Origin: Paragorgia papillata
Taxonomy: Eukaryota > Cnidaria > Anthozoa > Scleralcyonacea > Coralliidae
Assembly (NCBI GenBank): GCA_035771165.1
Contig: JAWNZC010000322.1
Coordinates: forward strand, 10,429,001 to 10,493,000
Reading direction: 5' to 3'
DNA length: 64,000 bases
Shown here: one piece after another, positions 6,673 to 25,476 of the stretch
Numbering within the stretch: the first letter of the stretch is position 1
Layout of the letters: each line of letters starts with the position of its first letter
Program-made: the position numbers and the translations under genes
Notes under the pieces: model-generated
Seen by the model: only the letters and a program-made list of their open reading frames with translations
Told to the model about the DNA's origin: nothing
The model's database searches: none

Positions 6673-6678
6673 AATATG

Positions 6679-6909: not shown

Positions 6910-6925
6910 TTCTTTTAAATAAAAA

Positions 6926-7666
6926 ATGAGTATACACTATGGTTATGAAAACAAAATATTAGAACATCAACAGTACGGCTATGCTTACAAAACTGTTTTT
7001 GACGTTAATTTACAAAAAGCTGTAAAAACTGGACAAGCCGATAAAGGTGTTAGAGTTGGAAGAGTACAAGACAATGAATATTCACTTTTTCAAAGCGTGT
7101 ACAACAGAGGACCAATACCTGGATTAGATTTTATTCAAAATACCAGAAAGTGTTTTATGATATTTAAATGTCCGGAAATGGTTAACATTAACATTTCTAT
7201 ATTCATCGTGGTGCGCGTTATTGGAGATACCAACAATTCCGGTTTGTGGGCATACATTATTGGTAACGATAATGGTGGTTACGATAAATTCATTGGATAC
7301 AAAACAGCATCAACAAACCAACTTTCGTATGGAGGGGGATTTCCTACAAAGGAGTACAACTGCACAATTCAAAGTGATGTTAGCATTTTTGATAAACATA
7401 TAATTTCTTGTCATTGGCTATTAAGCGGAAGTTGTGTATACATTAATGGAGTAAAGTCAGCGGATTCAGATTTTTATGCAAATCCAAAAACCATTGGCGA
7501 AACATGTAGTACAATATTTATGAACGATAGATTTACCGGAACCACAGGGCCGTTATCAAAACCGTTTAAAGGAGAGATTTACGATATTAAGGTTATTAGC
7601 GGATTTTTAGAAACAAATGATATTGTAAGCATAAACAAAAAAATAATGGATCAACATGACATTTAA
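6926..7666 (+). CDS. LamG/concanavalin-like jelly-roll protein, candidate virion fibre or attachment protein
   Basis: A 246-residue protein, first gene after the left TIR. The C-terminal half has the pattern of concanavalin A-like/laminin-G folds: CHWLLSGSCVYINGVKSAD (about 163-181) followed by the closing strand GEIYDIKVISGFL (about 219-231), then a run typical of the end of these domains. Such folds usually bind sugars or cell surfaces. In a capsid-coding element this suggests a fibre, but that is inference. The start follows TTTTAAATAAAAAATG, the motif used by the structural genes. Its stop falls inside the regulatory cassette of the next gene. Confidence 0.6.
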   Translation: MSIHYGYENKILEHQQYGYAYKTVFDVNLQKAVKTGQADKGVRVGRVQDNEYSLFQSVYNRGPIPGLDFIQNTRKCFMIFKCPEMVNINISIFIVVRVIGDTNNSGLWAYIIGNDNGGYDKFIGYKTASTNQLSYGGGFPTKEYNCTIQSDVSIFDKHIISCHWLLSGSCVYINGVKSADSDFYANPKTIGETCSTIFMNDRFTGTTGPLSKPFKGEIYDIKVISGFLETNDIVSINKKIMDQHDI

Positions 7667-7740
7667 GTGGGGACACTTTTTTCGACCATTTTTTCAACCA
7701 TTTTTTCGACCATTTAAAAAGATATATAATAAAGGAATAA
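7663..7740 (+). promoter_or_regulatory. Regulatory cassette copy 1, upstream of the zinc-ribbon/PriCT-2 gene
   Basis: It has an AAGTGGGGACACTTTT inverted repeat, then three direct repeats of TTTTTTC[GA]ACCA, then TATATAATAAAGGAATAATG. The same order occurs inverted at 10032-10110, and the first part recurs at 20847-20902. It overlaps the 3' end of the LamG gene. Confidence 0.75.
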
Positions 7741-9398
7741 TGGAACAAAAACGTGAAAAAGAAAGATTAAAAAAAGCTAAACAAAGATTAGCTAAAAAAC
7801 CTGTGAAACCTATATTAACAACAGAAGAAACAAAACTAAAGTATGCCGAACAAAGAAAAGCTAAAAAACCTGTGAAACCTATATTAACAACAGAAGAAAC
7901 AAAACTAAAGTATGCCGAACAAAGAAAAGCTAAAAAACCTGTGAAACCTATACTAACAACAGAAGAAACAAAACTAAAGTATGCCGAACAAAGAAAAGCT
8001 AAAAAACCACCAAAGGTGATTGTTCCGCTAGGTGAAAAGCGCAAAACAGACCAACTAAGGAAAGTTGCACAAAGACCAGCTAAAAAACCACCAAAGCCGA
8101 AAAAACAAGAAAAACCTTTAACTTTAAAACAACAACGAGAAAAAGAGTGTTTTGAAAAACTTGCTAACGAGTTACCGTCTATTGAAGATTCAGGCATACC
8201 CGGAGTGATAAGACTGTCAGCACCAAGAGCAAAACTCCTGGAGACCAAGCCTGGTTATTTCAACAGCGATGTTTCACTAATGTTTAGTCAAATGTTACAC
8301 GCAATCAAAAAACAACAAGAAAAACCGCAAACATTTCCACCAAATTACGATTTTAAACAACCATTTTTACCAGTAAAAGGTTGTAATTTTCAAAACTATT
8401 GTTTACACTCTTTTAAGGGTGACTACTGTGAAAGGAAATGTAATCAAAAGTTTTGTGAAGAACACAGTCCCAGAAACATTAGCGACAACTGCTTTCACCT
8501 AATCAAGGAAGAGGATGGTGACAACCGTTTTTGTATAAACTGTGGATTAGTTTTTGAAGGCTGCCCTATGCCACCACGACGCAAGCCAGTGAAACTTAAA
8601 AAAGGAGAAAGAAAAGAGGGTGATCCCGATTACTCATCAATTCAGACCAACAGAAAAAGCATCTTTACCGCTAATCACAGCCTTAAGGATTGGGTAAGGT
8701 GCGGTCAAATTTTAAGTAGAATGGCAGTTAATGAAAACAACAACACAAAAGAAAGACTGTTTTACCTATGGAAAAAGTTTTCACTAAAAATGTGCGGTGA
8801 AAACTATAGCCATGACTGTGTTAAGGATGTGTGGAACAAAGGATGTGTTTTTGCAGCATCACTACCACCTTATTCATTTGGTGGAAAGATATGGATGGAT
8901 GATGGCTATCTTTTACACAGACTGTCAGATGGTTGTCCATCCCTTTACAACCTTTGGTTAGACTTTACCAAAAAACAGGATAGCACCTTTTCATTACGTT
9001 TTTCCATTGAAATGTGGGAAAACTATTCCACACCTACCTGGGCTAGAAAGAAACTTATTTACCTTAAATATTTTCGAAACGAGGAAATATCTCATCACTT
9101 TTTCAGCAACGGGTTTACTCTTGCTGAGAACGATAACTACAACTTTACTGCGTACACAAAAGAGTACAAAAAAGGAACAATTGAAAATTACATAAAAGCT
9201 AATAGAAGGGTGTTAAAACCACTGAAATCAATTGTAAGCACAAATTTTGAAAACGAAAAAGAAAGCGAACTTAACAAGGAAATTGTTCGAATTAACGGAA
9301 TGCGTAAAGAAAAAAAGATAGAGTTATATAACTTTAACATTACTATGGTTGACGAAAGGCTTAAAAGGGATTATATTAAACAGCTTGAAAAGGCATAG
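7740..9398 (+). CDS. Zinc-ribbon protein with two PriCT-2-like modules and an N-terminal 23-residue repeat
   Basis: A 552-residue protein. I choose ATG 7740 over the in-frame ATG at 7656 because 7663-7740 is an almost exact copy of the cassette upstream of the minus-strand gene at 10032, including TATATAATAAAGGAATAATG, so the first 28 codons are promoter DNA. Three near-identical 23-residue basic repeats (KKPVKPILTTEET core) lie near the N terminus. A Cys/His-rich middle follows: CNFQNYC, CERKCNQKFCEEH, and the ribbon CINCGLVFEGC. Two modules near residues 313-365 and 380-430 share the spacing W-x(3)-G-x-x-L...LW-x-x-F...W of PriCT-2, a domain found between primase and helicase in NCLDV D5-type proteins. 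No primase or helicase core is present. A replication-initiation role is inferred. Confidence 0.6.
   Translation: MEQKREKERLKKAKQRLAKKPVKPILTTEETKLKYAEQRKAKKPVKPILTTEETKLKYAEQRKAKKPVKPILTTEETKLKYAEQRKAKKPPKVIVPLGEKRKTDQLRKVAQRPAKKPPKPKKQEKPLTLKQQREKECFEKLANELPSIEDSGIPGVIRLSAPRAKLLETKPGYFNSDVSLMFSQMLHAIKKQQEKPQTFPPNYDFKQPFLPVKGCNFQNYCLHSFKGDYCERKCNQKFCEEHSPRNISDNCFHLIKEEDGDNRFCINCGLVFEGCPMPPRRKPVKLKKGERKEGDPDYSSIQTNRKSIFTANHSLKDWVRCGQILSRMAVNENNNTKERLFYLWKKFSLKMCGENYSHDCVKDVWNKGCVFAASLPPYSFGGKIWMDDGYLLHRLSDGCPSLYNLWLDFTKKQDSTFSLRFSIEMWENYSTPTWARKKLIYLKYFRNEEISHHFFSNGFTLAENDNYNFTAYTKEYKKGTIENYIKANRRVLKPLKSIVSTNFENEKESELNKEIVRINGMRKEKKIELYNFNITMVDERLKRDYIKQLEKA
7792..7998 (+). repeat. Three tandem 69-bp coding repeats
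   Basis: Copies at 7792-7860, 7861-7929 and 7930-7998 differ by about one base (ATATTA against ATACTA in copy 3). The 69-bp unit keeps the frame and encodes 23 lysine-rich residues. Near identity implies recent expansion. Confidence 0.95.
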
Positions 9399-9414
9399 TT
9401 CCTATTTTTAAAAT

Positions 9415-9441
9415 ATTTCATATATTTAAAATATATGAAAT
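9415..9441. terminator. Hairpin between convergent gene ends
   Basis: ATTTCATATA and TATATGAAAT form a 10-bp stem with a 7-base loop between the stops of the plus gene (9398) and minus gene (9454). The same stem recurs at 21384-21410. It may direct 3'-end formation for both transcripts; this is inferred from position. Confidence 0.55.
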
Positions 9442-9453
9442 TAAATTTTTTTG

Positions 9454-10032
9454 TTAGCATCTTCTACAATGTTTACACCTTTTTGATTTAAAAGTGACCA
9501 TATTGCATAGACTTTCTTCAAAATCTTTTTCATCCTCGTCATCTGAAGATTCTGGCGTATAGTTTTCTAATTCGTATGCATTGCATGATTTTAGACCATA
9601 TGTTTCAGGATTAGCTCGGTAGCGATGCTGTTTTTGTGTGATTGAACGCGGACCTTGTAATTTGAATGGTACAACATAGGATTTGTAATCTTGTTGGTAG
9701 ATTTTTTTTTTGTTGAATTCTTTGAAGATGTTTTTGTATAACATATAGTATTTTTTTTTATCCCTTTCGTTAAAAATTGTAACAGTATCGTGACCAATTA
9801 TATGATCAATAAGCATTTTAAACATATCTTTTAACGCATCTGAAATACGACCCCGGTTTTTCTTGTTTTGCATTATTTCAATGAACACGTAGATTTTTTT
9901 GAGTTCACCAACCGGAAATATTATGAAATTAAAATTAACTTCAATTTCAAACGTTTTTAGTGACGGCATTTCGTCTTGGCAGATTAGATTTTGAAACTTT
10001 GTAACTAATGCATTTTTTTTCTTTAGTTCCAT
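9454..10032 (-). CDS. Unrecognised 192-residue protein with acidic stretch and Cys-rich C terminus
   Basis: I do not recognise the family. The middle is lysine-rich and probably helical. An acidic stretch, SSDDEDEKDFEE, precedes a C-terminal basic CKHCRRC. The terminal C-x2-C-x2-C could bind zinc or form disulfides. The start follows TATATAATAAAGGAATAATG and shares a nearly identical 80-bp upstream cassette with the zinc-ribbon gene at 7740, so the two genes are probably co-regulated. It is divergent from the PriCT-2 gene at 10130, with a 97-bp gap. Confidence 0.65.
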   Translation of the reverse strand: MELKKKNALVTKFQNLICQDEMPSLKTFEIEVNFNFIIFPVGELKKIYVFIEIMQNKKNRGRISDALKDMFKMLIDHIIGHDTVTIFNERDKKKYYMLYKNIFKEFNKKKIYQQDYKSYVVPFKLQGPRSITQKQHRYRANPETYGLKSCNAYELENYTPESSDDEDEKDFEESLCNMVTFKSKRCKHCRRC

Positions 10033-10110
10033 TATTCCTTTATTATATATCTTTTTAAATGGTTGAAAAAATGGTCGAAAAAATGGTTGAAAAAAGTGTC
10101 CCCACTTTAA
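10032..10110 (-). promoter_or_regulatory. Regulatory cassette copy 2 (inverted)
   Basis: Read on the minus strand this matches 7663-7740: TTAAAGTGGGGACACTTTTTT, three C[GA]ACCATTTTTT units, then TATATAATAAAGGAATAATG. It occupies most of the divergent promoter between 10032 and 10130. Confidence 0.75.
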
Positions 10111-10129
10111 AATCTACTATAATAAAGAG

Positions 10130-10942
10130 ATGAACACTTTAAACTTTTACTTAACTCAACTTTCAGTTAACCGTGGCAAGCCTTATTCTGAATCCTGGTA
10201 CACAACTGGATGTGTTATTTACAACTGCTCTAATGGTTCCAAAGAAGGTCATGAAATTTGGCACCGTTTTTCCCAACGTAATGAAAATTACAACAAAGAA
10301 GTTTGCGACAAAAAATGGCTTTACTTTAAAAAACAAGTTAAACTATATGCGATAAGACTATTAGTTCCCATGATTTACGAAGACGGAGGAACAACCTACA
10401 ACCCAAGTGAAACACAAATAGTTTTAGATGAAGAAGTGAGAAACTTTGTTTACAACATTATTATTCCTAAGTTATCAATTCGAAGAATGCGCAATAGCAA
10501 AGCTCTTAACAACCTTTGTTCTGCGGTGTTTACCATGTCAGAAGGAAAAGACGAACATATTTTAGCAGAAATTTGTAAAAGAATTAAAGACAAAGAATTA
10601 AAAAAAACATTTACCTTAACATGGAAGTACAAACGTTTTAGGTTTACTTGTGATATTAACAGCATTATTAGCTGGCACAACAGTGATGAAAAAGAAAAAC
10701 CAAACTCAAGGGCGACCAACATTAAATCATATATTAACAACGACCGACTTTGGTTAGAAAGAACAACCAGCTATTTAAAATCATTTGACAACGCTGGTTA
10801 TACACCAAGATATTTTAAAACAACTGCAGAAGAACGAAAAAAACTAGAACCTAAAGTAAAAAAGAAAAAACTTTTAAACGGATTGTGTAACGCAGGGTGT
10901 TTTAACATAGTTAATAGCCTTTTAAATAAAGATGTTAGTTAA
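10130..10942 (+). CDS. PriCT-2-like domain protein
   Basis: A 270-residue protein. Residues about 20-67 match the primase C-terminal 2 pattern: SWYTTGCVIYNCSNGS, then GHEIWHRFSQ, then YNKEVCDKKWLYF. The remainder is basic and ends KPKVKKKKLLNGLC-like. PriCT-2 normally links an archaeo-eukaryotic primase to an SF3 helicase in D5-type proteins; here it stands alone, so the biochemical role is unknown. The start follows ACTATAATAAAGAGATG, the motif of the replication genes. Its end overlaps the next start by 11 bases. Confidence 0.6.
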   Translation: MNTLNFYLTQLSVNRGKPYSESWYTTGCVIYNCSNGSKEGHEIWHRFSQRNENYNKEVCDKKWLYFKKQVKLYAIRLLVPMIYEDGGTTYNPSETQIVLDEEVRNFVYNIIIPKLSIRRMRNSKALNNLCSAVFTMSEGKDEHILAEICKRIKDKELKKTFTLTWKYKRFRFTCDINSIISWHNSDEKEKPNSRATNIKSYINNDRLWLERTTSYLKSFDNAGYTPRYFKTTAEERKKLEPKVKKKKLLNGLCNAGCFNIVNSLLNKDVS

Positions 10943-11135
10943 AAACAACATTAATGTTGCAAAGTGTGAATTCAAATCTAAAACTTGGTTTGATATTGGT
11001 AAACTTATTTTTAATCTCACAAATGGTAGCAACGAAGGATACAACCTTTGGGTGATGTATAGCAAATACGACCAAAAAAATTTTAACGAATCTTGTTGTA
11101 TTGAATACTGGGTTTACCTTATGAACAACGCTTAA
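10932..11135 (+). CDS. Small stand-alone PriCT-2-like protein
   Basis: A 67-residue protein that is almost entirely one PriCT-2-like module: KTWFDIGKLIFNLTNGSNEG, then YNLWVMYSKYD, then CCIEYWVYL. It starts inside the last codons of the preceding PriCT-2 gene, preceded by TTTTAAATAAAGATG, and the two modules look like a duplication. Small size lowers confidence, but the conserved W/G/LW/C-x3-W spacing argues it is real. Confidence 0.55.
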   Translation: MLVKNNINVAKCEFKSKTWFDIGKLIFNLTNGSNEGYNLWVMYSKYDQKNFNESCCIEYWVYLMNNA

Positions 11136-11165
11136 AATTGATTTTTTTATTATAATAATAAAGAG

Positions 11166-11402
11166 ATGAATAACGAATTACAATACGAAGATCCAGAAGG
11201 TTACATAGTTGTTTCAAACCAAGAACTGTATTGGTTTAGTAATTTAACTGAGCTTTTTGACACATTTGGTGATCGTGTAGAATGGGATTTTGAAAACGAA
11301 GTTTACATTATACCAAATGAAAACTTTGAAGTTGATGAAGAATTAAGTAATTGGTTGGATGAAGAAGATTTACCAGAATCTACAGCTACTGATGAACTTT
11401 AA
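11166..11402 (+). CDS. Small acidic protein
   Basis: A 78-residue, very acidic protein (many D/E, C-terminal LDEEDLPE). I do not recognise a family. It could mimic DNA or bind basic proteins, but nothing in the sequence proves this. The start follows TTATAATAATAAAGAGATG, matching the promoter of 10130. A perfect 28-bp palindrome begins 12 bases after the stop. Confidence 0.55.
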   Translation: MNNELQYEDPEGYIVVSNQELYWFSNLTELFDTFGDRVEWDFENEVYIIPNENFEVDEELSNWLDEEDLPESTATDEL

Positions 11403-11413
11403 TTAAAAAAAAA

Positions 11414-11441
11414 AAATTCCTATTTTTAAAAATAGGAATTT
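11414..11441. terminator. Perfect 28-bp palindrome between convergent genes
   Basis: AAATTCCTATTTTT is followed directly by its reverse complement, between the stops at 11402 (plus) and 11448 (minus). A probable bidirectional 3'-end signal; function inferred from position. Confidence 0.6.
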
Positions 11442-11447
11442 AAAAGC

Positions 11448-11849
11448 TTATATCAACTTGTGTAACAACCACCCACCACCAGCACCTGCTAATCCAACAG
11501 CCATAATTTGATATTTTTTCATTTCAGGCGATGGTTGGTAATAGTCTTCTAATTTTGGTGGTGGGATATTTCTTATGTTCCGAACTTGTTGTAGTTCTGC
11601 AAGTGCTTTGTTGGTGTCTTTAATATCACCTTTTGCATTGTAAAGTTCTTCTTGAAGTTTTTTTTCCTTGTTTCTTGCTGCTGTCTCTTGCTCACGGAAG
11701 GCTTCGTTAGCCTTTTGCTGTTCTTCCATTGCGTGGTTGTGTCTTTTCGCTTCTTCTTGGTAACCTTTTTTGTTAAACGTTGAGAATAAGTAACCAGCTC
11801 CTGCAAAGGCAACCGCATTAAATAATCCTCCTGCTATCATTGATACCAT
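11448..11849 (-). CDS. Membrane protein with two hydrophobic ends and a central coiled coil
   Basis: A 133-residue protein. Hydrophobic segments lie at about 3-24 and 113-131, and a charged Glu/Lys/Gln-rich coiled coil spans about 30-88. The family is not recognised. It is in the minus-strand capsid block, so a virion membrane or internal structural role is possible. Its start lies in TATAAATAAATG. Confidence 0.6.
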   Translation of the reverse strand: MVSMIAGGLFNAVAFAGAGYLFSTFNKKGYQEEAKRHNHAMEEQQKANEAFREQETAARNKEKKLQEELYNAKGDIKDTNKALAELQQVRNIRNIPPPKLEDYYQPSPEMKKYQIMAVGLAGAGGGWLLHKLI

Positions 11850-11860
11850 TTATTTATACT

Positions 11861-12082
11861 TTAAACCTTAAGAGGGATATACCCCGCGGTTTGACCCTTT
11901 TTTACCAAAAAGCTACCAACTGCAACAGCGACAGCTAACTTTGCGGCATCCTTTAGACTGGCTGGTGCTGCTAAAGGCTGACCAGCCACTTTTTTAGAAA
12001 CCATACTTACAACTACGGCTCCTGCGGTAACTAACGCAGCTTCGTACAAATCTTGCATTACTTCACGTTTTGTTTCAATCAT
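11861..12082 (-). CDS. Small hydrophobic protein, probable membrane protein
   Basis: A 73-residue, alanine/valine-rich protein with hydrophobic stretches at about 14-28 and 44-62. Not recognised. It is in the capsid block just upstream of the 133-residue membrane protein, with an 11-bp gap. The start lies in CTATAATAAATG, the shared late-type motif. Confidence 0.55.
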   Translation of the reverse strand: MIETKREVMQDLYEAALVTAGAVVVSMVSKKVAGQPLAAPASLKDAAKLAVAVAVGSFLVKKGQTAGYIPLKV

Positions 12083-12108
12083 TTATTATAGTAGAATTTT
12101 ACAAAGTT

Positions 12109-12192
12109 CTAGTTCAGATGTATCGTTAGGTAATGATCCTGATTTTTGTTGCATGTTACACTTGCTTTTTCAAAACCATAATTTAGTGTCAT
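12109..12192 (-). CDS. Possible 27-residue mini-protein
   Basis: An open frame of 27 codons fills the gap between the 73-residue gene and the penton-like gene. It begins two bases after the penton-like stop and follows GATAAAATAAAATG. There is nothing to compare it with. I list it only because of the start motif and the otherwise unexplained gap. Confidence 0.22.
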   Translation of the reverse strand: MTLNYGFEKASVTCNKNQDHYLTIHLN

Positions 12193-12193
12193 T

Positions 12194-12832
12194 TTATTTT
12201 ATCGTTATTTCTAACAATATGTCGCCAATCTCATGGCTTACCGAAAACTTTAGTTCGTTATAAATTCCGTCGTTTAGTTTGGTTTCACTGTTGATGTTGT
12301 CGTAGTGTGTAACGGTGCCCTTTAATGACTGGGTGGTTGTAATTGGAAGAATTGCGATGGACCCATCCCGTTGACCTTGAAATGATGTTTTGTTTTTGTT
12401 AACAGCACTACACTTAATGTTAATATATTTTAAACCAAGGTTAACATTAACAGATGTGTTAGAAGTCCAACCACTTCCTTTTGGAATAACCATCCGTGTT
12501 TCAGAAAATCCAAGAATTGGAGCCAGTTTTTCAAGGGAAAGGATTTCTGTTGGTGTAATTTTAATTTTTTGCGAATAATGTACTAGCTCTGCTTTTGCGT
12601 TTACTTCCGCTAATTTTTCAACAATCATGTTGGCGGTCCAATAACCAGGTTTAAACCATAATTTTTTACTACCATTTGCGATAAAAATAGGATCTGTAAT
12701 GTTATTAAAATCCCAAAACACACTTGCACACTTTACTGTCATTGTTTTGTTTTCGATGACTAAAGGTTCATCAAATTTAACAATGGTTTCCATTTCATTG
12801 TTTTTTTCCATGAAGATTCTTAAAAGACTCAT
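12194..12832 (-). CDS. Minor capsid (penton-like) protein
   Basis: A 212-residue protein. It lies directly downstream of the ATPase, where Polintons keep the minor capsid gene. The C-terminal half has strand-rich stretches typical of penton proteins: LKYINIKCSAV, then SIAILPITTT, and a closing EIGDILLEITIK. This fits a single jelly roll that would form capsid vertices. The call rests on position and pattern, as sequence similarity in this family is weak. The start follows TTTAAATAAATG. Confidence 0.65.
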   Translation of the reverse strand: MSLLRIFMEKNNEMETIVKFDEPLVIENKTMTVKCASVFWDFNNITDPIFIANGSKKLWFKPGYWTANMIVEKLAEVNAKAELVHYSQKIKITPTEILSLEKLAPILGFSETRMVIPKGSGWTSNTSVNVNLGLKYINIKCSAVNKNKTSFQGQRDGSIAILPITTTQSLKGTVTHYDNINSETKLNDGIYNELKFSVSHEIGDILLEITIK

Positions 12833-12844
12833 TTATTTAAAAAA

Positions 12845-12877
12845 AAAAATCATATGCCAACAAAACATATGATTTTT
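12845..12877. terminator. Hairpin downstream of the packaging ATPase gene
   Basis: AAAAATCATATG and CATATGATTTTT form a 12-bp stem around a 9-base loop, 8 bases after the ATPase stop and just before the penton-like gene. Confidence 0.55.
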
Positions 12878-12884
12878 ACACTTT

Positions 12885-13469
12885 TTATACTATTTCATGA
12901 TTGTATGGGTGTTTTAGGTTGATCTCTAACCTACTATATTTTTTTTCTTTCAATGTTTCTTTGATTTTTTTTTCTTCATCTTTTGAAACGTCTAAATAAT
13001 CATCTAGGATAATCTGCATATCCTTTTTGTTTGGATTGTAAAAAGACACTAGTTTTGATATGTTTTCTCTATACGGTTTTGCAATACTTGTTAGTTGTTG
13101 TGTAATCACTATTGTGCTAATAAGCATATGCCTTGCACCAAATCCAAGTTTTACCAACTCACTAGTTCGGTTTTTTACCGACTGTCCAGCAGCGCAGTCA
13201 TCAAGTATGATTAACGATGGACTTCCTTTACAATATTCCACAACAAATTTCAGAAGCTCATCTGTTTGATCCTGGTTACAGGGTATAACAAAGAAGTTTG
13301 AATCGTTTAAATGTTTCCAGTTTAGATAGGTTTTATTCCACTCAAAAGTTGGACAAATTAAAAATATGTTTTCAAACTGTTTATAACATTTTTCTTCTAA
13401 CATTTCAAGAAGGTAATGTGTTTTTCCACATCCCGTCATTCCGACTATTATCATGTTAAATGAATTCAT
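12885..13469 (-). CDS. A32-like genome-packaging ATPase (FtsK/HerA superfamily)
   Basis: A 194-residue protein. The Walker A motif is GMTGCGKTHY at about 10-19 and Walker B is SLIILDDCAA at about 85-94. A conserved Gln/Thr stretch follows (STIVITQQ, about 117-124). Length and motif order match the packaging ATPases of Polintons, virophages and NCLDVs, which pump DNA into preformed capsids. It is placed between the major and minor capsid genes, 13 bp after the major capsid stop. The start lies in GTAAATAAATG. Confidence 0.9.
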   Translation of the reverse strand: MNSFNMIIVGMTGCGKTHYLLEMLEEKCYKQFENIFLICPTFEWNKTYLNWKHLNDSNFFVIPCNQDQTDELLKFVVEYCKGSPSLIILDDCAAGQSVKNRTSELVKLGFGARHMLISTIVITQQLTSIAKPYRENISKLVSFYNPNKKDMQIILDDYLDVSKDEEKKIKETLKEKKYSRLEINLKHPYNHEIV

Positions 13470-13482
13470 TTATTTACTTTGT

Positions 13483-14691: not shown

Positions 14692-14719
14692 TTATTATAG
14701 TGTAATTTTTATAACAAAA

Positions 14720-15061
14720 TTATATATCATCGTTATCAAGATTGTTAAACACCACTTCTTTTGATACTTTTTTAGGTTCTACTTTTTCTTTTTTTTTTGT
14801 CCCAGTGTACTGCTTCCATACAATGTATGTTCCTATTACACCAGTTACAGCACCAACTATACTTAGTGATGTTGTTAACCCAGGTAACACTAAAGATTCG
14901 CCTTCACCGCTTTGCTCTTCGTTTTGCTGTTGAAGGGCTTCCTTTTTCTTAGCTTTTGCGTTTTTGCTTATTTCAGCTAGTCTGTATCCTTGTGCAACTC
15001 TTTTTGGGTTTTTTACCCTTGTTACTTCTTCAGATTTTGTAATAGTTCGTTGTTCATTCAT
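14720..15061 (-). CDS. Single-pass membrane protein of the capsid block
   Basis: A 113-residue protein. It has a basic N-terminal half with Lys/Gln/Glu-rich helix (about 30-50), a hydrophobic segment LSIVGAVTGVIGTYIVW (about 66-82) and a Lys/Glu-rich tail. Not recognised. It is upstream of and co-directional with the major capsid gene, separated by 28 bp. The start lies in CATAATAAATG. Confidence 0.55.
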   Translation of the reverse strand: MNEQRTITKSEEVTRVKNPKRVAQGYRLAEISKNAKAKKKEALQQQNEEQSGEGESLVLPGLTTSLSIVGAVTGVIGTYIVWKQYTGTKKKEKVEPKKVSKEVVFNNLDNDDI

Positions 15062-15095
15062 TTATTATGACGGAATTAACACATTTGCTATTTTT

Positions 15096-15247
15096 GCTAT
15101 TTTGTATTATAATTTTGCTATTTTGTATGTAATAGCTAGTTATACAGCTAGCTATTTTGTATTATAATTTTGCTATTTTGTATGTAATAGCTAGTTATAC
15201 AGCTAGCTATTTTGTATTATAATTTTGCTATTTTGTATGTAATAGCT
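15096..15247. repeat. Tandem 55-bp repeats in a divergent promoter
   Basis: Two full copies (15096-15150, 15151-15205) and one 42-bp partial copy lie between the minus gene starting at 15061 and the plus resolvase gene at 15273. Each contains two TTGCTATTTTGTAT units and a CTAGTTATACAGCTAG stretch. They could be iterated binding sites, an origin or an enhancer; function unknown. Confidence 0.9.
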
Positions 15248-15272
15248 CTAGCTGTCAAAACATACAAAATAA

Positions 15273-15788
15273 ATGTTAATATTATCCATAGACATTGGAA
15301 TTAAAATTTTTTGTTACAGTGTGGAAGAATATACAAAGGATCCGCTTTCTGGTTGTGTGAAAGAACTAAAAAATTCATGTTTGGCAAAAAATGGGAGGAA
15401 GGAGGTTTCAACTGCGGTTCTCAATAGCGTTTCTGGTATCATTCAAAATGTTTTTAAAACATTTGCGGTTACTAATGTTTTAATAGAAAAACAAGTTAGA
15501 CAAAACACAAACTGTATACGACTAATGCAGCACGTTTGGACCTTAGTTTCTTTGCTGTATCCTAACGTGGAACTAGAACTGTACCCCCCAAAATTTAAAA
15601 CAAGTGTGTTTGGGGTTAAGCTTGGCGATCACAGATCGCGTAAAAAGTGGGCTGTACAATACGCTAAAAAATTGATGGAAGAACGCGGTGATCAAGAAAC
15701 CTTACTTTTACTTGATGTTAAAAAAGCAGATGATATGGCAGACTGTTTGTTGATGAGTCTTAGCTGGATGTACAGAAAGTATGGTTAA
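15273..15788 (+). CDS. RuvC-like Holliday junction resolvase (poxvirus A22-like)
   Basis: A 171-residue protein with an RNase H-fold resolvase layout: SIDIGIK with Asp7, NVLIEKQ with Glu72, and KKADDMADCLL with Asp154 and Asp157. These are four acidic residues in the order and spacing of RuvC/A22. It would cut branched DNA, for example resolving replication or packaging intermediates. The start lies in CAAAATAAATG. The stop codon directly abuts the stop of the convergent minus gene (15789). A resolvase is not part of the usual Polinton core set as I know it. Confidence 0.75.
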   Translation: MLILSIDIGIKIFCYSVEEYTKDPLSGCVKELKNSCLAKNGRKEVSTAVLNSVSGIIQNVFKTFAVTNVLIEKQVRQNTNCIRLMQHVWTLVSLLYPNVELELYPPKFKTSVFGVKLGDHRSRKKWAVQYAKKLMEERGDQETLLLLDVKKADDMADCLLMSLSWMYRKYG

Positions 15789-17261
15789 TTAGAAAAATTT
15801 GTAAAATGTGAAAAAGGTGCCAGTAAGAAAAGCTCCAAAAACTAATGGTAATACAAGCGGTGAATCATGGTTTGCCGGTAACCGAGTTGTTACGCTCTGC
15901 TGTTTTGCTGGTATTCGAGTTGTTACGCTCTGCTGTGGAATATTAACCACTTTGTTAATATTCTTATTGTTGCCAAATGTCATCTTACCTGTTGCTAGTG
16001 TTAGTGTGTTGTTAAATCCGCTAATAGGATTAATAAGAATTCTCATATCTGACGGAATAAGAATTAAACCCGGTGAAACGGCAAAATTTAGAATTACATT
16101 GGTACTTTTGATAGCTGTACGCATATTTGAAATGGCAACAGTTGTATCATCTTGAGCTATTGTATCTTTAACAAGTTTTAAGAAAACATCCTGCGTTTGT
16201 GTACTTTTGGCTCCTTGATCTATGATACTCCATCTGGTTCTTGCTTGCGCGCCTAAAATACAGTAAACATAGCTTTCTATGGATTGTTGAAATAGTTTTT
16301 GTCCTAATGGTGTTATTCCATTTGAGGTTTTTGGGATAAAAAGCTGGTAATCATTACCTTCTTTTGGTTTGCCTCCCATATATTTTTCATATTTTAAATT
16401 TGCTCCGTAATTAATGTAATTTGCATGGTTTTTTACATACCTCATGTTTCTTATAATATAACCTAGACTTTCTTGCTGTTTTAAAAAATCTTCTAGTTTC
16501 GTTGTCGTGTCACTGTATTGTGTCCTCCAAATTTTTCTAACTGGTGTGTGTTCTTGTAAAAAATCTAAATGTTTTCCTGACATATATTTTTTAAGTTTTT
16601 TGGGGTTTCGTAAAAACCTTCTTAAATGGTAGGCAAGGTGGTACTGGGTTATACTTGTAATTATATTTGATCTTGCTCTTGGAATTTTGTTTAAAAAATG
16701 TTTTTCTGAAATTCCACACAAATTGGTAGCAACATAAGTAGCTGCTATTGCTGTAAAGTATGGATTATTTAAGTAATCAAAGTCTTCTTTTGAATATGGT
16801 TTCTCTGGTTCGTTGGCTGGTTTTATGTAAGTTGTATTTAGTTCTTCAAAATGTGCTGTAAACTTTTTCTTTTCAGTTACAAAAATAGCAAAGACATTTA
16901 AGTTTAATGTGAATTTTTCATTAAGTCCAGGATCCGGTGAATCTTGGGTGACAGACCATTCTTTTGGCCAGTATAGGTGGTTAACCCAATTAGGGTTGTT
17001 TTTAAAGGTGTCTGATGTGATGTTGATAGTTGAGGAGTCATTTAATTTAAAAAGCACCTCCCTAGAGTCAACCTCTCCTTTGTTATTAAGCCAAATAGAA
17101 AAAATAAACCTGCTTACATCAGCATTTGGATATTTTTCTAAAAACTCATTACGAAGTTTGGCTTTTTCTATTGGTCCACCTTTAACTGCACCTTTGTAGT
17201 CTTTTTCATACAACGTCTTAAGACGTTGTAGTTCTTTTGGTGAGTAAACATTAGTCATCAT
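15789..17261 (-). CDS. Large unrecognised protein with C-terminal membrane anchor
   Basis: A 490-residue protein. The body is mixed and globular, with IQYHLAYHLRRFLRN-like basic helix near 210-225. Near the end, two copies of PAKQQSVTTR-type sequence precede a final hydrophobic segment LVLPLVFGAFLTGTFFTFY, giving a tail-anchored layout. I do not recognise a family. It is probably structural, given its late-type start (TAAATAAAATG) and size. It begins ATGATG, so the exact start may be either codon. It is divergent from the integrase with only 18 bp between start codons. Confidence 0.6.
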   Translation of the reverse strand: MMTNVYSPKELQRLKTLYEKDYKGAVKGGPIEKAKLRNEFLEKYPNADVSRFIFSIWLNNKGEVDSREVLFKLNDSSTINITSDTFKNNPNWVNHLYWPKEWSVTQDSPDPGLNEKFTLNLNVFAIFVTEKKKFTAHFEELNTTYIKPANEPEKPYSKEDFDYLNNPYFTAIAATYVATNLCGISEKHFLNKIPRARSNIITSITQYHLAYHLRRFLRNPKKLKKYMSGKHLDFLQEHTPVRKIWRTQYSDTTTKLEDFLKQQESLGYIIRNMRYVKNHANYINYGANLKYEKYMGGKPKEGNDYQLFIPKTSNGITPLGQKLFQQSIESYVYCILGAQARTRWSIIDQGAKSTQTQDVFLKLVKDTIAQDDTTVAISNMRTAIKSTNVILNFAVSPGLILIPSDMRILINPISGFNNTLTLATGKMTFGNNKNINKVVNIPQQSVTTRIPAKQQSVTTRLPANHDSPLVLPLVFGAFLTGTFFTFYKFF

Positions 17262-17279
17262 TTTATTTATAAATAAAAA
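17262..17279. promoter_or_regulatory. 18-bp bidirectional start region
   Basis: The start codons of the minus gene (17261) and the integrase (17280) are separated only by 18 bases containing the perfect palindrome TTTATTTATAAATAAA. Each direction reads TAAATAAA and then the start codon, so one palindrome can serve both genes. Confidence 0.65.
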
Positions 17280-19073
17280 ATGACTACTTTAACACAAAAA
17301 CCAAACGGTTTTCACCGCGAAAAGCGAAGCGAAGTCGCAGACGACTCTTCGATTTTAACGCTACTTGACCTTGAGTTAAGAAACATATATTACAATCCTG
17401 TAACCGGTTACCAAAGTGCGGAAAAGCTTTACCAAAAGGCGGTTGAAGAAAATGTGGAAGGAGTTACAAGAAAGTTAGTTAAGGAGTGGTTATCTTCGCA
17501 AAGTACATACACACTACACAAACCGCTAAGAAAACCACGTAAAACGCAAAGGACTTTTGTTAAAAATTTAGCCGACCAGCTTCAAATGGACTTAGTGGAT
17601 ATGGCTAAGTTTAGTTTTGTAAACAAAAGATTTAACTGGATATTAACAGGAGTTGAAATTTTAAGTAGGTTTGCTTTTACCGTTCCTGTGCACAAAAAAA
17701 ATACAGAAAGTATGGTAGAAGGAGTTGGTAAAATGTTAAAGGAATTTAAACATCACTTCCAAAAGTATCCCGAGGTTGTTCAGTTTGATAATGGTAATGA
17801 ATTTTATAATGTTGGAGTGAAATCCCTTTTAAAATCTCATGACATAGAATACTTTTCAACACTTTCAGAACGTAAGGCAGCTATTGTAGAAAGATTTAAC
17901 AGAACATTAAAAACAAGGATGTGGAAATATTTTACCGCTGAACAAACTAAAACTTGGTTACCAGTTTTAGACAAACTCACCAAAAGTTATAACAACACAT
18001 TTCACTCAACCATTAAAAGAAAACCTAATAGCGTTAATTTTAATAACCAAGATGAGGTATTTTTAACTTTATACGGTTTACCACCGACAAAATTTCCAAC
18101 ACCCAAATTTAAGGTTGGCGATTATGTAAGAATATACAAATACAAAAAGAACTTTGCAAAGGGGTATGACCCTAATTTTACAAGTGAAGTTTTTAAAATA
18201 TCAGCTGTGTTTCGCGGTGATCCGGTGATGTACAACATTGAAGACAACTTAGGTGAAAATGTTATTGGAAAGTTTTACGATGAAGAGTTGGTCCAAGTTT
18301 ATACAATAAATAAAATGGAAGGATTTGAATTTAATACCTTTAATGAAAACAATGAAGCGGAAATGCGCGGTGAAGAGGAAACAAGCTTTATGGACAATGA
18401 TAATGACGACTTTGGTGGTTATGATGATGATGACTATGATGAAAACATTGATCTGGAAGGAAGACCAGATTTAGAGCCGTTTGATTCGAATGCGTGGGTA
18501 AAAGCACAAGACCCTAACGTAACAGTTGAAGAAAACGTTGAAGAAAATACAATACAAAACAAATATAAGCGATGGGAAACCTCTGAGAAAAGAAGAATTA
18601 CAAGAACGCGACAAGAATTTTTAAGAAACAACTTTAATCAAGAAATAGTGATGAAAGATGGTCCCACCTCAAGAGAACTAATTAACAAAAGTTTAATTTC
18701 AATAAGTGAAAAAACTGGAAAGGTAAACGGAATTCTTTATGACGGAACAAGAGTTGTTGTTCAAAAAGGAAAAGGATTTGTTTTAAGTACAAGTGAAAAA
18801 GCGCAACCGGCTGTGCAAAAATACATCCAACTTATGGAAAATGCGCGTTTTGAACATGGTGGAACCGCAAACGGGGCTATTGAGGAAACTGTTGGTAGCC
18901 TTCCTGGAACACCAAATGTTAATGGGATCAGAGCAAATGTTATCAATAACATCCAAGATGAAATAGAAATAGGTAACAATTCGATTGACAAAACACAACT
19001 CACAGATGAGGAACTAAGAGAACTTGGTGGAATACTAGCAACGGATGACATAAAAAAATTTAGACGCTGTTGA
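17280..19073 (+). CDS. Retroviral-type (DDE) integrase, fused in frame to a downstream late-gene-like segment
   Basis: The open frame is 597 residues. Residues about 90-225 are an rve integrase core: Asp104/Asp107 in QMDLVDM, Asp170 in QFDNGNEF and Glu204 in AAIVERFNRTLK. Residues about 280-345 look like an SH3/chromo-type DNA-binding tail (FKVGDYVRIYKYK). The enzyme would insert the element and create the 6-bp duplication. From Met346 (18315) the sequence becomes acidic (MDNDNDDFGGYDDDDYDE) and unlike integrases. That Met is preceded by ACAATAAATAAAATG, the late-type start motif, so residues 346 onward may be a separate gene fused by loss of a stop. Frame breaks follow near 19051 and 19267. 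Confidence 0.85.
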   Translation: MTTLTQKPNGFHREKRSEVADDSSILTLLDLELRNIYYNPVTGYQSAEKLYQKAVEENVEGVTRKLVKEWLSSQSTYTLHKPLRKPRKTQRTFVKNLADQLQMDLVDMAKFSFVNKRFNWILTGVEILSRFAFTVPVHKKNTESMVEGVGKMLKEFKHHFQKYPEVVQFDNGNEFYNVGVKSLLKSHDIEYFSTLSERKAAIVERFNRTLKTRMWKYFTAEQTKTWLPVLDKLTKSYNNTFHSTIKRKPNSVNFNNQDEVFLTLYGLPPTKFPTPKFKVGDYVRIYKYKKNFAKGYDPNFTSEVFKISAVFRGDPVMYNIEDNLGENVIGKFYDEELVQVYTINKMEGFEFNTFNENNEAEMRGEEETSFMDNDNDDFGGYDDDDYDENIDLEGRPDLEPFDSNAWVKAQDPNVTVEENVEENTIQNKYKRWETSEKRRITRTRQEFLRNNFNQEIVMKDGPTSRELINKSLISISEKTGKVNGILYDGTRVVVQKGKGFVLSTSEKAQPAVQKYIQLMENARFEHGGTANGAIEETVGSLPGTPNVNGIRANVINNIQDEIEIGNNSIDKTQLTDEELRELGGILATDDIKKFRRC

Positions 19074-19628
19074 CATAGCTGTTAAGTACTGGGATGACAA
19101 AGCAAAAGCTGAAGCTGATATCCGAAAAAAAGCTGTTTACAAAGACATTTCAGATGTTGCTAAGTTAAAAGCCGAAGAACTAAGATTAAAAAATAACTTA
19201 AAACCTGAAAGGGAAGAAACCTTAGATAGGATAGCTGACGATGAAATAACAAAATATGAAAAATTTAAAAGTTTGCTAAAGAAAACTTTGTATCTTTGTC
19301 AACATTAGCTATAACTATTGCCGGCGTCATAACAACAGTAGTTATATTTGGTAAAAAAAACTTAACTAGCGCCGCAAAAGCAGCTGCAAAAGCGGCTGCT
19401 GAACTTGCAAAAGCATCACTAAAAATAGCAAAAGCGCAATACAAAATACTGAAAGCCGCCCTACCCGTAATACTTAAGTTGTTTAACATGTTAACCAAAT
19501 TATTGGTACTTGGTTCAAAAGGATTGCTATGGCTGTCAAAACATTTGTGGGTATTAGCTATTGCTTTTGCTTATATTCTTTACAAAAACGTGAAAGCACT
19601 TTCACCAAAAAAAGATAGTAATAAATGA
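18315..19628 (+). pseudogene. Probable separate late gene overlapping the integrase frame, broken by two shifts
   Basis: This begins at an internal ATG with its own late-type motif (ACAATAAATAAAATG). The acidic and globular part ends at a stop at 19073. From the A7 run at 19052-19058 the reading continues in another frame to a stop at 19308. From about 19267 it returns to the original frame, giving a hydrophobic, Ala/Lys-rich part with membrane segments to 19628. The two breaks cancel, as expected if one longer gene had been damaged; sequencing error in A-runs is an alternative. The product would be a structural or membrane protein of unknown family. Confidence 0.5.
19296..19628 (+). CDS. Hydrophobic Ala-rich membrane protein segment
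   Basis: About 110 codons without an ATG start; the first usable codon is TTG at 19296, so it may be only the 3' part of the broken gene beginning at 18315. It has a hydrophobic N-terminal segment, an Ala/Lys helix (SAAKAAAKAAAELAK) and two hydrophobic C-terminal segments. Its stop overlaps the next start (ATGA at 19625). Confidence 0.4.
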   Translation: MSTLAITIAGVITTVVIFGKKNLTSAAKAAAKAAAELAKASLKIAKAQYKILKAALPVILKLFNMLTKLLVLGSKGLLWLSKHLWVLAIAFAYILYKNVKALSPKKDSNK

Positions 19629-20155
19629 ACACAGAAGAACTTAACTTTGAAAACATACAACCAAACGTACAACATGAAAACAACAACCTTAGAGATGAAC
19701 TAATCCGCTTGTCTGCCGCAAAAGAAATTAAATACTCAGAAAAATATATCAAAAAGGCGAGTCAATCCGCATTAGAAAAAATCAAAGAAAACCATCAACG
19801 CGATCAAATGGATAAGGTCAACTCACAGTTAACTGAAAGTCTTATTTCCAAGTTTTCAAAATTAATGGAACAACTAAATATGGTTGAAAACAACGGTAAC
19901 CTAGACAAAGAACTATCGGAAAACAAACTTTTCCATGACGATGTTAAAACAATGGTTATGAAGGTATCCCCCTACATCCCTATGATTGGTTTGTTTTCAG
20001 GTGGACTAATACTAGCAAAACATATGTGGGACAAACCCGAAAACGAAGTAGATAAAGAAACACAAAATGAAGTACAAAGTAATCAGGATTCTAGCGCAAG
20101 CAACAATAGTAGCAATACTATTAATTCCGATAACGGTGGAGTTAATACTGATTAA
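19625..20155 (+). CDS. Single-pass membrane protein with long helical N terminus
   Basis: A 176-residue protein. Residues 1-110 are charged and helical, a hydrophobic segment VSPYIPMIGLFSGGLILA spans about 113-130, and the tail is Asn/Ser-rich and disordered. Not recognised. Its start overlaps the previous stop by 4 bases, implying co-expression with the upstream membrane segment. A virion membrane or scaffold role is possible. Confidence 0.55.
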   Translation: MNTEELNFENIQPNVQHENNNLRDELIRLSAAKEIKYSEKYIKKASQSALEKIKENHQRDQMDKVNSQLTESLISKFSKLMEQLNMVENNGNLDKELSENKLFHDDVKTMVMKVSPYIPMIGLFSGGLILAKHMWDKPENEVDKETQNEVQSNQDSSASNNSSNTINSDNGGVNTD

Positions 20156-20190
20156 AACATTATTATTTTAATTTCCCATTTTTAAATAAA

Positions 20191-20472
20191 ATGGGAAACT
20201 CAAAAAGTAAAACAAAAGAAAAACTTAACAAAAACCATAATACAAAAAAAGGATTCCAGCTTGGTATTAGTTTCGGAAAAGATTCTGAAACAATAGAAGG
20301 AAACGTGCAAATGGGTTGGACAAACAAAACAGTCAAGAACTACTCTCGTATACCCGGGTATACCACTTGTCAACACTGTCCTGAATCTCAGAACACATCT
20401 CCCGAACCAAATCGTCAATCACCATCAGCTTCCCATCAAACAGAGCCTGATCAAAGTGAACCCCTCGCATAA
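20191..20472 (+). CDS. Small protein with N-myristoylation-type start
   Basis: A 93-residue protein starting MGNSKSKTKEK, a classic N-myristoylation signal (Gly2, Ser5/Ser7, following lysines). The rest is basic, then Pro/Ser/Gln-rich. Its 3' 140 bases overlap the convergent minus gene (20333-20833). The start follows TTTTAAATAAAATG. It may tether to host membranes; inference. Confidence 0.5.
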   Translation: MGNSKSKTKEKLNKNHNTKKGFQLGISFGKDSETIEGNVQMGWTNKTVKNYSRIPGYTTCQHCPESQNTSPEPNRQSPSASHQTEPDQSEPLA

Positions 20473-20833
20473 ACTCTCTAAGATTATTCAGCACCTTTCT
20501 ATAATTTTTAAAGGCAAACCTGTTTCTATCCACCGCTTTTGTCAAATTAGCTTTTCGCATATAACCAGCTATCAAAAGACCTAATCCCGACATTGCACCT
20601 AAAATCCATGGATTAAGTGTAATACAACCCAAAACAGTTCCACCAGTGCTACCAGATATTAAAACCACTTTCAAAAACAAAAAAATGTTGTCTTTGTACT
20701 TGCTTTTTTTATACATTCTCTCATAACATTTTGTTAGTCTGTGGTAGTGTGCATACATTTCCTTAAATCTCGTTATTTGGTCTTCAGTTAAATCTTTTGA
20801 GATATGATTAAAGTTAAATATTTTACAAATCAT
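20333..20833 (-). CDS. Two-helix membrane protein (SLATT-like layout)
   Basis: A 166-residue protein. An N-terminal helical region (1-50) is followed by two close hydrophobic segments (about 52-72 and 75-91, VVLISGSTGGTVLGCITL and ILGAMSGLGLLIAGY), then a long helical tail. This layout recalls SLATT-type or viral membrane proteins, but I cannot assign a family. The start lies in CTATAATAAATG. It overlaps the myristoylated-type gene on the other strand. Confidence 0.55.
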   Translation of the reverse strand: MICKIFNFNHISKDLTEDQITRFKEMYAHYHRLTKCYERMYKKSKYKDNIFLFLKVVLISGSTGGTVLGCITLNPWILGAMSGLGLLIAGYMRKANLTKAVDRNRFAFKNYRKVLNNLREFMRGVHFDQALFDGKLMVIDDLVREMCSEIQDSVDKWYTRVYESSS

Positions 20834-20846
20834 TTATTATAGTAAT

Positions 20847-20902
20847 TTTAAAGTGGGGACACTTTTTTCAACCATTTTTTCGACCATTTTTTCGACCATT
20901 TT
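20847..20902 (+). promoter_or_regulatory. Regulatory cassette copy 3
   Basis: TTTAAAGTGGGGACACTTTT and three C[GA]ACCATTTTTT repeats, matching copies 1 and 2 but without the TATATAATAAAG part right after. A related fragment, TTTAAAGTGGGACAACC, lies at 20985-21001, closer to the start at 21031. Confidence 0.7.
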
Positions 20903-20946
20903 GATGGGACAACCTTTCACTTTTTTGAATAATAAAGAAATGTACT

Positions 20947-20981
20947 AAAGTTAACTTTAACTTTAAGTTAAAGTTAACTTT
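20947..20981. promoter_or_regulatory. 35-bp near-perfect palindrome
   Basis: AAAGTTAACTTTAACTTT is followed by AAGTTAAAGTTAACTTT, nearly its own reverse complement. It sits in the upstream region of the SAP/NUMOD gene and of the minus gene at 20833. A possible operator or replication site. Confidence 0.6.
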
Positions 20982-21030
20982 GACTTTAAAGTGGGACAAC
21001 CTACCAAAAAAAGGTATATAATAAATAACA

Positions 21031-21348
21031 ATGTATACAATAAGACAACTAAGACAAATGGGTAAAGAAAGAGGAATCAAATACTTTTCAAAAATGAATA
21101 GTAAAACTCTATGTGAAAAACTTGGTCTTACGCTAGTAAGAAACCAAGCATTCGACACACACAACAAAAACAAAATTGGTATACCAGTTCCAATCACAAT
21201 CGAAAACATGGAAAGCGGTGAAATTATAAAATTTCCAAGCATATACAAAGCATCAAAACATCTTGACATAAACCCAAATTACATCTACAAATTCCTAAAA
21301 GAAAAAACTGTATCAATAAAGGGGTGTCCGTACTCTATCACCAAATAG
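21031..21348 (+). CDS. SAP-like plus NUMOD1-like DNA-binding protein
   Basis: A 105-residue protein. Residues 2-32 (TIRQLRQMGKERGIKYFSKM then LCEKLGL) resemble a SAP helix-extended-helix motif. The C-terminal 45 residues (FPSIYKASKHLDINPNYIYK) resemble NUMOD1, a helix-turn-helix module found in homing endonucleases. No nuclease core is seen, so it may be a regulator or an origin-binding factor. The start follows TATATAATAAATAACAATG. Confidence 0.55.
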   Translation: MYTIRQLRQMGKERGIKYFSKMNSKTLCEKLGLTLVRNQAFDTHNKNKIGIPVPITIENMESGEIIKFPSIYKASKHLDINPNYIYKFLKEKTVSIKGCPYSITK

Positions 21349-21383
21349 TCAGTTTTTCAATTCCATACTTCCTTTTCAAAAAA

Positions 21384-21410
21384 ATTTCATATATTTTAAA
21401 TATATGAAAT
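21384..21410. terminator. Hairpin after the SAP/NUMOD gene
   Basis: The same ATTTCATATA/TATATGAAAT stem as at 9415-9441, located 36 bases after the stop and upstream of the polymerase promoter (ACTATAATAAAGGG at about 21439-21452). Confidence 0.5.
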
Positions 21411-21457
21411 TAAATCAAATTTTTTTTTGCAAAATCTTACTATAATAAAGGGATAAA

Positions 21458-25470: not shown

Positions 25471-25476
25471 AATATG

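Follow-up and report, generated by a model that had tools for sequence, protein, structure and literature searches.

A start-codon AATAAA box as a likely promoter in a Polinton-type element of Paragorgia papillata

In vaccinia virus the late-promoter sequence TAAAT overlaps the transcription start site, and late promoters of African swine fever virus (ASFV) need a TATA sequence at the initiation region, according to the available text of PMC5294985. How Polintons express their genes seems open: the promoter studies located deal with virophages and giant viruses, and the literature searched, which lacks most subscription papers, yielded no description of promoters in Polintons proper. The stretch analysed here (64,000 nucleotides of contig JAWNZC010000322.1 of Paragorgia papillata, called the window, whose positions are used throughout) holds a complete Polinton-type element of 18,792 bp (about 18.8 kb; 6679-25470), which shows the terminal inverted repeats of Polinton/Maverick elements (about 246 nt, 98% identical) and is flanked on both sides by a 6-bp target-site duplication, AATATG (6673-6678 and 25471-25476). 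Its gene starts carry an AATAAA box that, judged from the sequence, is likely to be a promoter. We consider it probable that this box acts as a viral-type transcription initiator producing near-leaderless mRNAs under early/late control; the start site, timing and machinery of the box are what we infer.

AATAAA was found -1 to 8 nt before the ATG at all 19 accepted genes (at -1 its last A is that of the ATG). Since three of these genes (starts at 7740, 20191 and 21031) had been listed partly with the motif in view, the test was repeated on a motif-blind set of the longest non-overlapping open reading frames (ORFs), counting AATAAA within the 20 nt before the ATG plus the A of the ATG itself. 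ORFs of at least 60 amino acids carried the box at 17 of 20 starts, compared with 12 of 605 other ATGs in the element (Fisher p 7e-23), and those of at least 70 amino acids at 16 of 19 starts, compared with 13 of 607. The three misses of the latter set were ATG 7656, which lies upstream of and in frame with the gene starting at 7740, and the minus-strand ORFs 19265-19489 and 20868-21269, the second of which overlaps the accepted gene at 21031. Host-flank ORFs had the box in 0 of 36 cases (at least 60 amino acids) and 1 of 100 cases (at least 40 amino acids). AATAAA occurs 29 times in the element, and all nine copies of the longer AATAAATG (both strands) lie at box-bearing gene starts. The genes are closely packed: 18 nt separate the ATGs of p490 (17261, minus strand) and the integrase gene (17280, plus strand), both of which have an AATAAA of their own, and only 11 and 13 nt precede the p133 and ATPase genes, respectively.

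The 19 boxes fall into two classes by their distance from the ATG. Class one comprises six genes, with spacings of 3, 3, 5, 6, 6 and 8 nt: the PriCT-2 gene (10130-10942; box 10121-10126, plus strand, 3 nt), p78 (11166-11402; AATAATAAAG, 11157-11162, plus, 3 nt), the NUMOD gene (21031-21348; box 21020-21025, plus, 5 nt), p552 (7740-9398; TATAATAAAG, 7728-7733, plus, 6 nt), p192 (9454-10032; box 10039-10044, minus, 6 nt) and the gene for PolB, which we take to be a protein-primed family B DNA polymerase (21458-25303; CTATAATAAAG, 21444-21449, plus, 8 nt). Class two comprises 13 genes, with spacings of -1 (nine genes), 0 (two) and 2 (two). On the plus strand these are p246 (6926-7666; TAAATAAA, 6918-6923, 2 nt), a RuvC-type resolvase (15273-15788; AAAATAAATG, 15268-15273), p176 (19625-20155; GTAATAAATG, 19620-19625) and p93 (20191-20472; TTAAATAAA-ATG, 20185-20190). 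On the minus strand they are p133 (11448-11849; TATAAATAAATG, 11849-11854), p73 (11861-12082; CTATAATAAATG, 12082-12087), p212 (12194-12832; TTTAAATAAATG, 12832-12837), the packaging ATPase (12885-13469; GTAAATAAATG, 13469-13474), p402 (13483-14691; CTATAATAAATG, 14691-14696), p113 (14720-15061; CATAATAAATG, 15061-15066) and p166 (20333-20833; CTATAATAAATG, 20833-20838), while p490 (minus) and the integrase gene (plus) share a bidirectional class-two start region at 17262-17277. The core is TATAATAAA in five of the six class-one sites and AATAATAAA in p78; class-two cores are TAAATAAA, TATAATAAA or less. The core alone does not separate the classes; they are set apart by spacing together with the base that follows AATAAA, which is G in 5 of 6 class-one and 0 of 13 class-two sites.

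An earlier sequence-only reading of the stretch had proposed two motif classes dividing replication from structural genes. All the sites it named (six of class one, twelve of class two) were present as described, and one class-two site that it had overlooked was added (GTAATAAATG at 19625). Its classes hold as spacing classes, the spacing being kept in divergent copies, but not as classes of core sequence. The functional division was borne out in so far as PolB and PriCT-2 stand apart from the p402 capsid candidate, the A32-type ATPase, the A22-type RuvC and the integrase; it is only suggestive because so few genes have a known role.

A second motif accompanies some of these starts. Nine of the ten TGGTYGAAAA sequences of the element lie in three clusters of three repeats at 12-bp steps, upstream of p552 (7679-7712, minus strand), between p192 and PriCT-2 (10060-10093, plus strand) and upstream of p166 (20865-20898, minus strand), and these clusters may act as an upstream regulatory element for genes of early type.

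Conservation was examined in three divergent copies from the same genome (PolB 79-83% identical), which were read as separate pieces and provided 37 orthologous starts of 14 genes; p246, p552, p176 and RuvC were outside the count, and the integrase was scored separately. AATAAA directly before the ATG was kept at 32 of the 37 starts. In these 32 pairs the 9-nt box was 94% identical, while the 32 nt upstream of it were 63% identical, compared with 59% for shuffled upstream sequence, a pattern in which the box is held under selection while the neighbouring sequence has turned over. Loss of the motif at orthologous starts of related Polintons, which the sequence-only reading had named as grounds for giving it up, was thus not what was seen within the genome. 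The box was kept in 3/3 copies of PriCT-2, NUMOD (spacing 3 there), PolB (spacing 4 there), p133 (spacing 2 there), p73, p212, p113, p93 and p490, in 2/2 of p192 (L070 and L072), in 2/3 of p402 and in 1/1 of the ATPase gene, the start of which lay beyond the pieces of the other two copies. Every orthologue that retained the box also retained its class (32/32 pairs): the 11 class-one pairs (PolB, NUMOD, PriCT-2 and p192) all have TATAATAAA with a spacing of 3-7, and the 21 class-two pairs all have a spacing of -1 to 2. The five misses were p166 in three copies, one p402 capsid start and, in L071, the p78 start; a same-frame ATG further upstream has a class-one box there. At the integrase, which was scored separately, the box directly adjoins an in-frame ATG in 3/3 divergent copies, with an additional in-frame ATG upstream of the box-joined one in L054. 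The divergent pieces L054-L056 gave no RuvC match, the RuvC box being kept in the three closer copies listed; p552 had no orthologue among the divergent pieces read, and the boxes of p246 and p176 were read in the window. The PolB box was present in every non-identical row listed of 34 matches. Two of the pieces also show one box region serving two genes: in L070 (711-739) the ATGs of PriCT-2 and a p192-like gene are 23 nt apart and flank a single palindrome, TTTATTATATAATAAA, and L072 (485-514) has the same arrangement (gaps of 23-24 nt in the two), whereas PriCT-2 and p192 of the window are 97 nt apart and have separate boxes. Position, enrichment, conservation, two conserved spacing classes and bidirectional use in very short gaps are thus observed properties of the box.

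More distant relatives bearing PolB comprised one IMG/VR record and 12 loci from contigs binned into bacterial or archaeal genomes, 13 loci tested in all; IMG/VR yielded one relative record by PolB and integrase and one further by ATPase, and duplicates were dropped (L001, L015 and L016, equal to the record of L002; L018 and L019, equal to L009 and L014). AATAAA was present at 5 of 8 starts in L009 (9 of 265 elsewhere, p 8.5e-6), at 2 of 15 in L002 (11 of 555, nominal p 0.04) and at 2 of 6 in L011 (nominal p 0.05), and was not enriched at the starts of L003, L004, L005, L006, L007, L008, L010, L012, L013 and L014 (1/5 in the last). L002 carries a TATATATA-type (TATA-type) box at 8 of 15 starts (5 of 555 elsewhere, p 3e-11), the same box standing at PolB and integrase. 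The PolB start of L004 reads ATAATAAA-ATG and is too close to the contig end for the enrichment count, and L017, the second ATPase relative, had no such box joined to the starts of ORFs of at least 80 amino acids. On these sequences the exact box marks this AT-rich group of elements and is not universal.

Two of the distant loci encode, adjoining PolB, a helical zinc-ribbon protein (L009:2737-3207 and L014:1417-1923, both minus strand; 63% identical to each other). A Pox_VLTF3 match was obtained in L014 only and below threshold (E 0.011-0.014). With Foldseek, the three best viral matches of the L009/L014 protein were VLTF3-like (prob 0.90, 0.84 and 0.66; E 0.19-0.67), and the best PDB matches included several RNA polymerase II (Pol II)/III initiation complexes, at E 1 or worse. 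These profile and model-based matches weakly suggest a VLTF3/TFIIB-like protein; VLTF3 is said to be undetected outside Nucleocytoviricota in the available text of PMC11253617. The zinc-ribbon frame of L014 stops short of the orthologous start box. A further gene of L009 (659-1099, minus strand) encodes a BRO N-terminal domain (E 1.2e-24) and has a spaced AATAAAG box. Within the window, p552 was considered as a VLTF3-like protein and gave no profile match, and the best-scoring frame of the element in the profile search (E 0.002) is a short one that overlaps, out of phase, the start of PolB; we attribute its score to chance.

The likeness to the poxvirus late signal, which the sequence-only reading had pointed out, extends to the initiator: TAAATG stands at 9 of the 13 class-two starts, the other four reading TAAAATG or TAAAAAATG. 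It does not extend to a general T-rich core, and no RNA polymerase family was found to accompany it among the 18 ORFs scanned. Upstream cores were tested at 18 starts (p192 was omitted, its upstream sequence duplicating that of p552), where A-runs were weakly in excess (AAAA at -22 to -8 in 7/18 against 0.165 expected; TAAAA in 4/18 against 0.049). Because the T-rich core is not general, the box would work like a poxvirus late promoter, and is not equated with one.

In the mechanism that we propose, TA(T/A)AATAAA would serve the element as a transcription initiator of its own, set on the start codon or a few bases ahead of it, with transcription beginning in or just past the A-run, so that the mRNA leader would measure 0 to about 12 nt. 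Replication genes would form an early class, having TATAATAAA(A)G and then a short leader, and the genes for capsid, packaging, resolvase and integrase a late class, in which AATAA runs into the ATG. A Pfam search of 18 element ORFs (p73 and p78 were outside the scan) recognised no RNA polymerase subunit family, so the polymerase might be either host Pol II redirected by a virus-supplied VLTF3/TFIIB-like factor or one borrowed, in the manner of virophages, from a co-infecting large DNA virus.

Gene ends were searched for signals of their own. Perfect hairpins with a stem of at least 9 bp numbered 11 in the element, compared with 1.1 expected from Markov sequences, and 5 of the 11 lie within 60 nt of a gene 3' end (p 2.6e-4 relative to the whole element, p 0.06 relative to intergenic sequence only). 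AT-rich palindromes were located at the convergent 3' ends of p552/p192 (9415-9441) and p78/p133 (11414-11441; also in L067, and cut by the piece edge in L066), 3' of the NUMOD gene (21383-21411; arms kept, loop variable) and 29 nt past the PolB stop, within the terminal repeat (25332-25357). The NUMOD-end hairpin has a stem of 11-13 bp, with intact arms and a variable loop in 31/31 close copies including that of the window; the NUMOD end has hairpins of different sequence in L050 and L053 and a decayed one in L051. The hairpin between the ATPase and p212 genes is present in L062 (with a paired C-G to T-A change), L064, L065 and L066 and not in L063. Among the distant relatives, L005, L009 and L014 have hairpins at ORF ends, and L002 shows neither an excess (2 compared with 1.5) nor any hairpin at an ORF end. 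Of 13 isolated gene 3' ends, 5 have ATTAAA within 80 nt (0.10 expected each), which would allow host polyadenylation there. RNA folding energy at the 3' ends was mostly unremarkable (lowest percentiles 0.03 for the ATPase gene and 0.055 for p176), and the early-termination signal TTTTTNT was not systematic at class-one gene ends. A perfect palindrome with a 16-bp stem between the p166 and NUMOD genes (20947-20981) lies away from gene ends.

Among other explanations, helper dependence is a special case of the initiator reading: the boxes would be promoters belonging to a nucleocytoplasmic large DNA virus that infects the same cell, with the Polinton as a virophage-like parasite transcribed by the polymerase of that virus, its transcripts ending at hairpins. 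The available text of PMC6723459 gives precedents, the late promoter of Cafeteria roenbergensis virus (CroV) being on all Mavirus genes, and the mimivirus late promoter and hairpin polyadenylation signal on 12 and 16 Sputnik genes, respectively. The hairpin excess in the element, the proportion near gene ends and the recurrence of the NUMOD-end and ATPase-p212 hairpins in copies speak for it, but no helper is known, the placement of hairpins is less striking when judged against intergenic sequence only, 3' folding energies are mostly ordinary, the ATTAAA sites allow host polyadenylation and L002 has no hairpin excess; we regard this special case as rather unlikely. Alternatively, AATAAA could signal polyadenylation of the gene before it and overlap the start codon that follows; it is indeed present at 6/6 gene ends with a same-strand start within 80 nt. 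At those six ends, however, it is the start box of the next gene. That reading is contradicted by the 13 of 19 box-bearing starts that lie more than 80 nt from any same-strand gene end and by the finding of AATAAA within 80 nt at 0 of 13 isolated ends, and is hardly credible.

Two further explanations would place the true promoters elsewhere or leave them to the host. A-rich start contexts are common, and class two is A-rich up to the ATG, so the box might be translation context only, an A-rich host-type sequence with the promoters lying elsewhere. Against this, the sequence of the box is constant while its distance to the ATG varies from -1 to 8 nt, which argues that it is not mere Kozak context, and palindromic boxes are shared between divergent genes; we judge translation context improbable. 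Ordinary host Pol II promoters of TATA type that merely adjoin the ATG would account for the resemblance of TATAATAAA to a TATA box, and the element is chromosomal. A TATA box directs initiation about 25-30 nt downstream, however, a distance that would drop the ATG from the mRNA at all 19 genes. Start-to-start gaps of 18 nt (p490/integrase) and 23 nt (L070) and intergenic gaps of 11 and 13 nt leave little room for an ordinary promoter and leader, the bidirectional gaps in general being 18-24 nt, and the box is at 0 of 36 flank ORFs, a control consisting of flank ORFs, not of host promoters. Host TATA-type promoters are accordingly a very improbable account.

Several observations weigh against the initiator reading with its two temporal classes. 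The core is common to both, CTATAATAA occurring five times, at PolB and PriCT-2 (class one) and at p73, p402 and p166 (class two), and the functional split rests on two clear replication genes and four virion or DNA-processing genes, which makes it suggestive, not proven. The gene p166, of class two in the window, carries the TGGTYGAAAA element of early-type promoters and lacks AATAAA in 3/3 divergent copies, and the capsid start in L055 reads GATAAATG. A T-rich core is not general, TTTT occurring at -22 to -8 in 6/18 starts (background 0.185) and TTTTT at -30 to -8 in 4/18 (0.119). Of the 13 distant loci, L009 alone is clearly enriched for AATAAA and L002 alone for the TATA type, and the class split is not general, because the PolB box of L004 joins the ATG and PolB and integrase of L002 carry the same box. 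Finally, a profile search found no VLTF3-like protein in the window's element.

The start-codon motif, held under selection, amounts to a concrete and testable promoter code: it forecasts where transcription of 19 genes should begin and that they should divide into early and late. It also matters for deciding whether Polintons behave as transposons, as autonomous viruses or as viruses that depend on a helper. A wider proposal can be made, though we lean against it at present: that Polintons of this group are read by initiation in the style of poxviruses and ASFV, with near-leaderless mRNAs, early and late classes and hairpin ends, driven by a co-infecting large DNA virus or by a VLTF3/TFIIB-like factor, encoded by the Polinton, that retargets host Pol II. 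If true, such Polintons would not be transposons relying on host promoters but virophages, or viruses that regulate themselves through a transcription programme of their own.

The element belongs to a family with at least 36 PolB copies (79-100% identical) in the 618 Mb and 473 contigs of the genome searched, a lower bound since 36 of 16,847 candidates were scored. No internal stop was found in 28 of the 36 rows, some of which are partial, and the set looks like that of a recently active family. The PolB gene (plus strand) encodes a 1281-aa product 39-40% identical to an ORF of the Polinton-like record L002; no polymerase family was among the three Pfam matches obtained, and a DTDS-type motif was recognised by eye. 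In the N-terminal half of PolB, Pfam points to a stretch resembling Endonuclease VII (E 1e-5), and inspection by eye to an OTU-like region. Pfam also placed the ATPase in the A32 type (Pox_A32, E 1e-15, 58 bits, cut-off 22.8) and the resolvase with Pox_A22 (E 4.7e-12), identified the element-encoded PriCT-2 and NUMOD genes (both plus strand), and matched the integrase-like protein to rve below the cut-off (E 5.9e-7, 30.1 bits, cut-off 32.6); the latter is 36% identical over 270 aa to an ORF of L011. The p402 product is probably a double-jelly-roll capsid protein, as suggested by a low-confidence structure model, and p490 diverges more than p402 between the copies read in pieces. The p552 product is zinc-ribbon-like, the only accepted product with the zinc-ribbon pattern tried; it gave only a hint of PriCT_2 (E 2.2), and comparison ruled out its being a paralogue of the PriCT-2 gene. 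Searches of solved structures with PolB, p552 and p490 gave no match. Elsewhere, two overlapping open frames without a clear start lie 3' of the integrase gene (19054-19628; coding-like, one membrane-type by eye), the interval between p113 and RuvC (15092-15234) contains repeats at about 55-bp steps and small palindromes, perhaps an origin or regulatory site, and several inverted repeats resembling miniature inverted-repeat transposable elements occupy the host flank directly left of the element (4500-6381).

The pGKL cytoplasmic linear plasmids of yeast are protein-primed. Like the element they are linear DNA elements, and their mRNAs carry 5' poly(A) leaders, according to the available text of PMC6831550; they differ in having putative RNA polymerase genes of their own, as given in the available part of PMC6211774, whereas none was recognised in the window's element. 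Closer in kind are the adintovirus-like insertions of Amoebidium, which are Polinton-related, with a PolB matching adintovirus; as far as the available text of PMC11244446 goes, they are about 30 kb when complete, come with no account of their promoters and are listed with VLTF3, which was not found in the element of the window. The same text reports that demethylation switched on 144 adintovirus genes (32%), with capsid genes not seen to respond. Such silent capsid genes would fit late genes needing something more, an analogy that is not a test of the window's element.

Promoters of virophages and endogenous mavirus-like elements (EMALEs) resemble the present case in that a single motif (TCTA in Mavirus; available text of PMC8547959) precedes almost every gene in an element related to Polintons, and Sputnik likewise has hairpins at gene ends (PMC6723459, in the part available). 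The element differs from them in its motif, an AATAAA that abuts the ATG in two spacing classes, and in that no giant-virus partner is known. ASFV encodes its own polymerase. Vaccinia late promoters share with the element an AT-rich initiator that overlaps the start codon and leaves the mRNA nearly or wholly leaderless, and use at late virion genes, as set out in the available text of PMC5294985; they differ in having a T-rich core 5-7 bp upstream, the element having no recognised RNA polymerase and using the same core plus a spacer in class one. ASFV late promoters, from the same source, have a TATA-like sequence at the initiation site itself, as the element appears to have, whereas in the element the box also serves replication genes.

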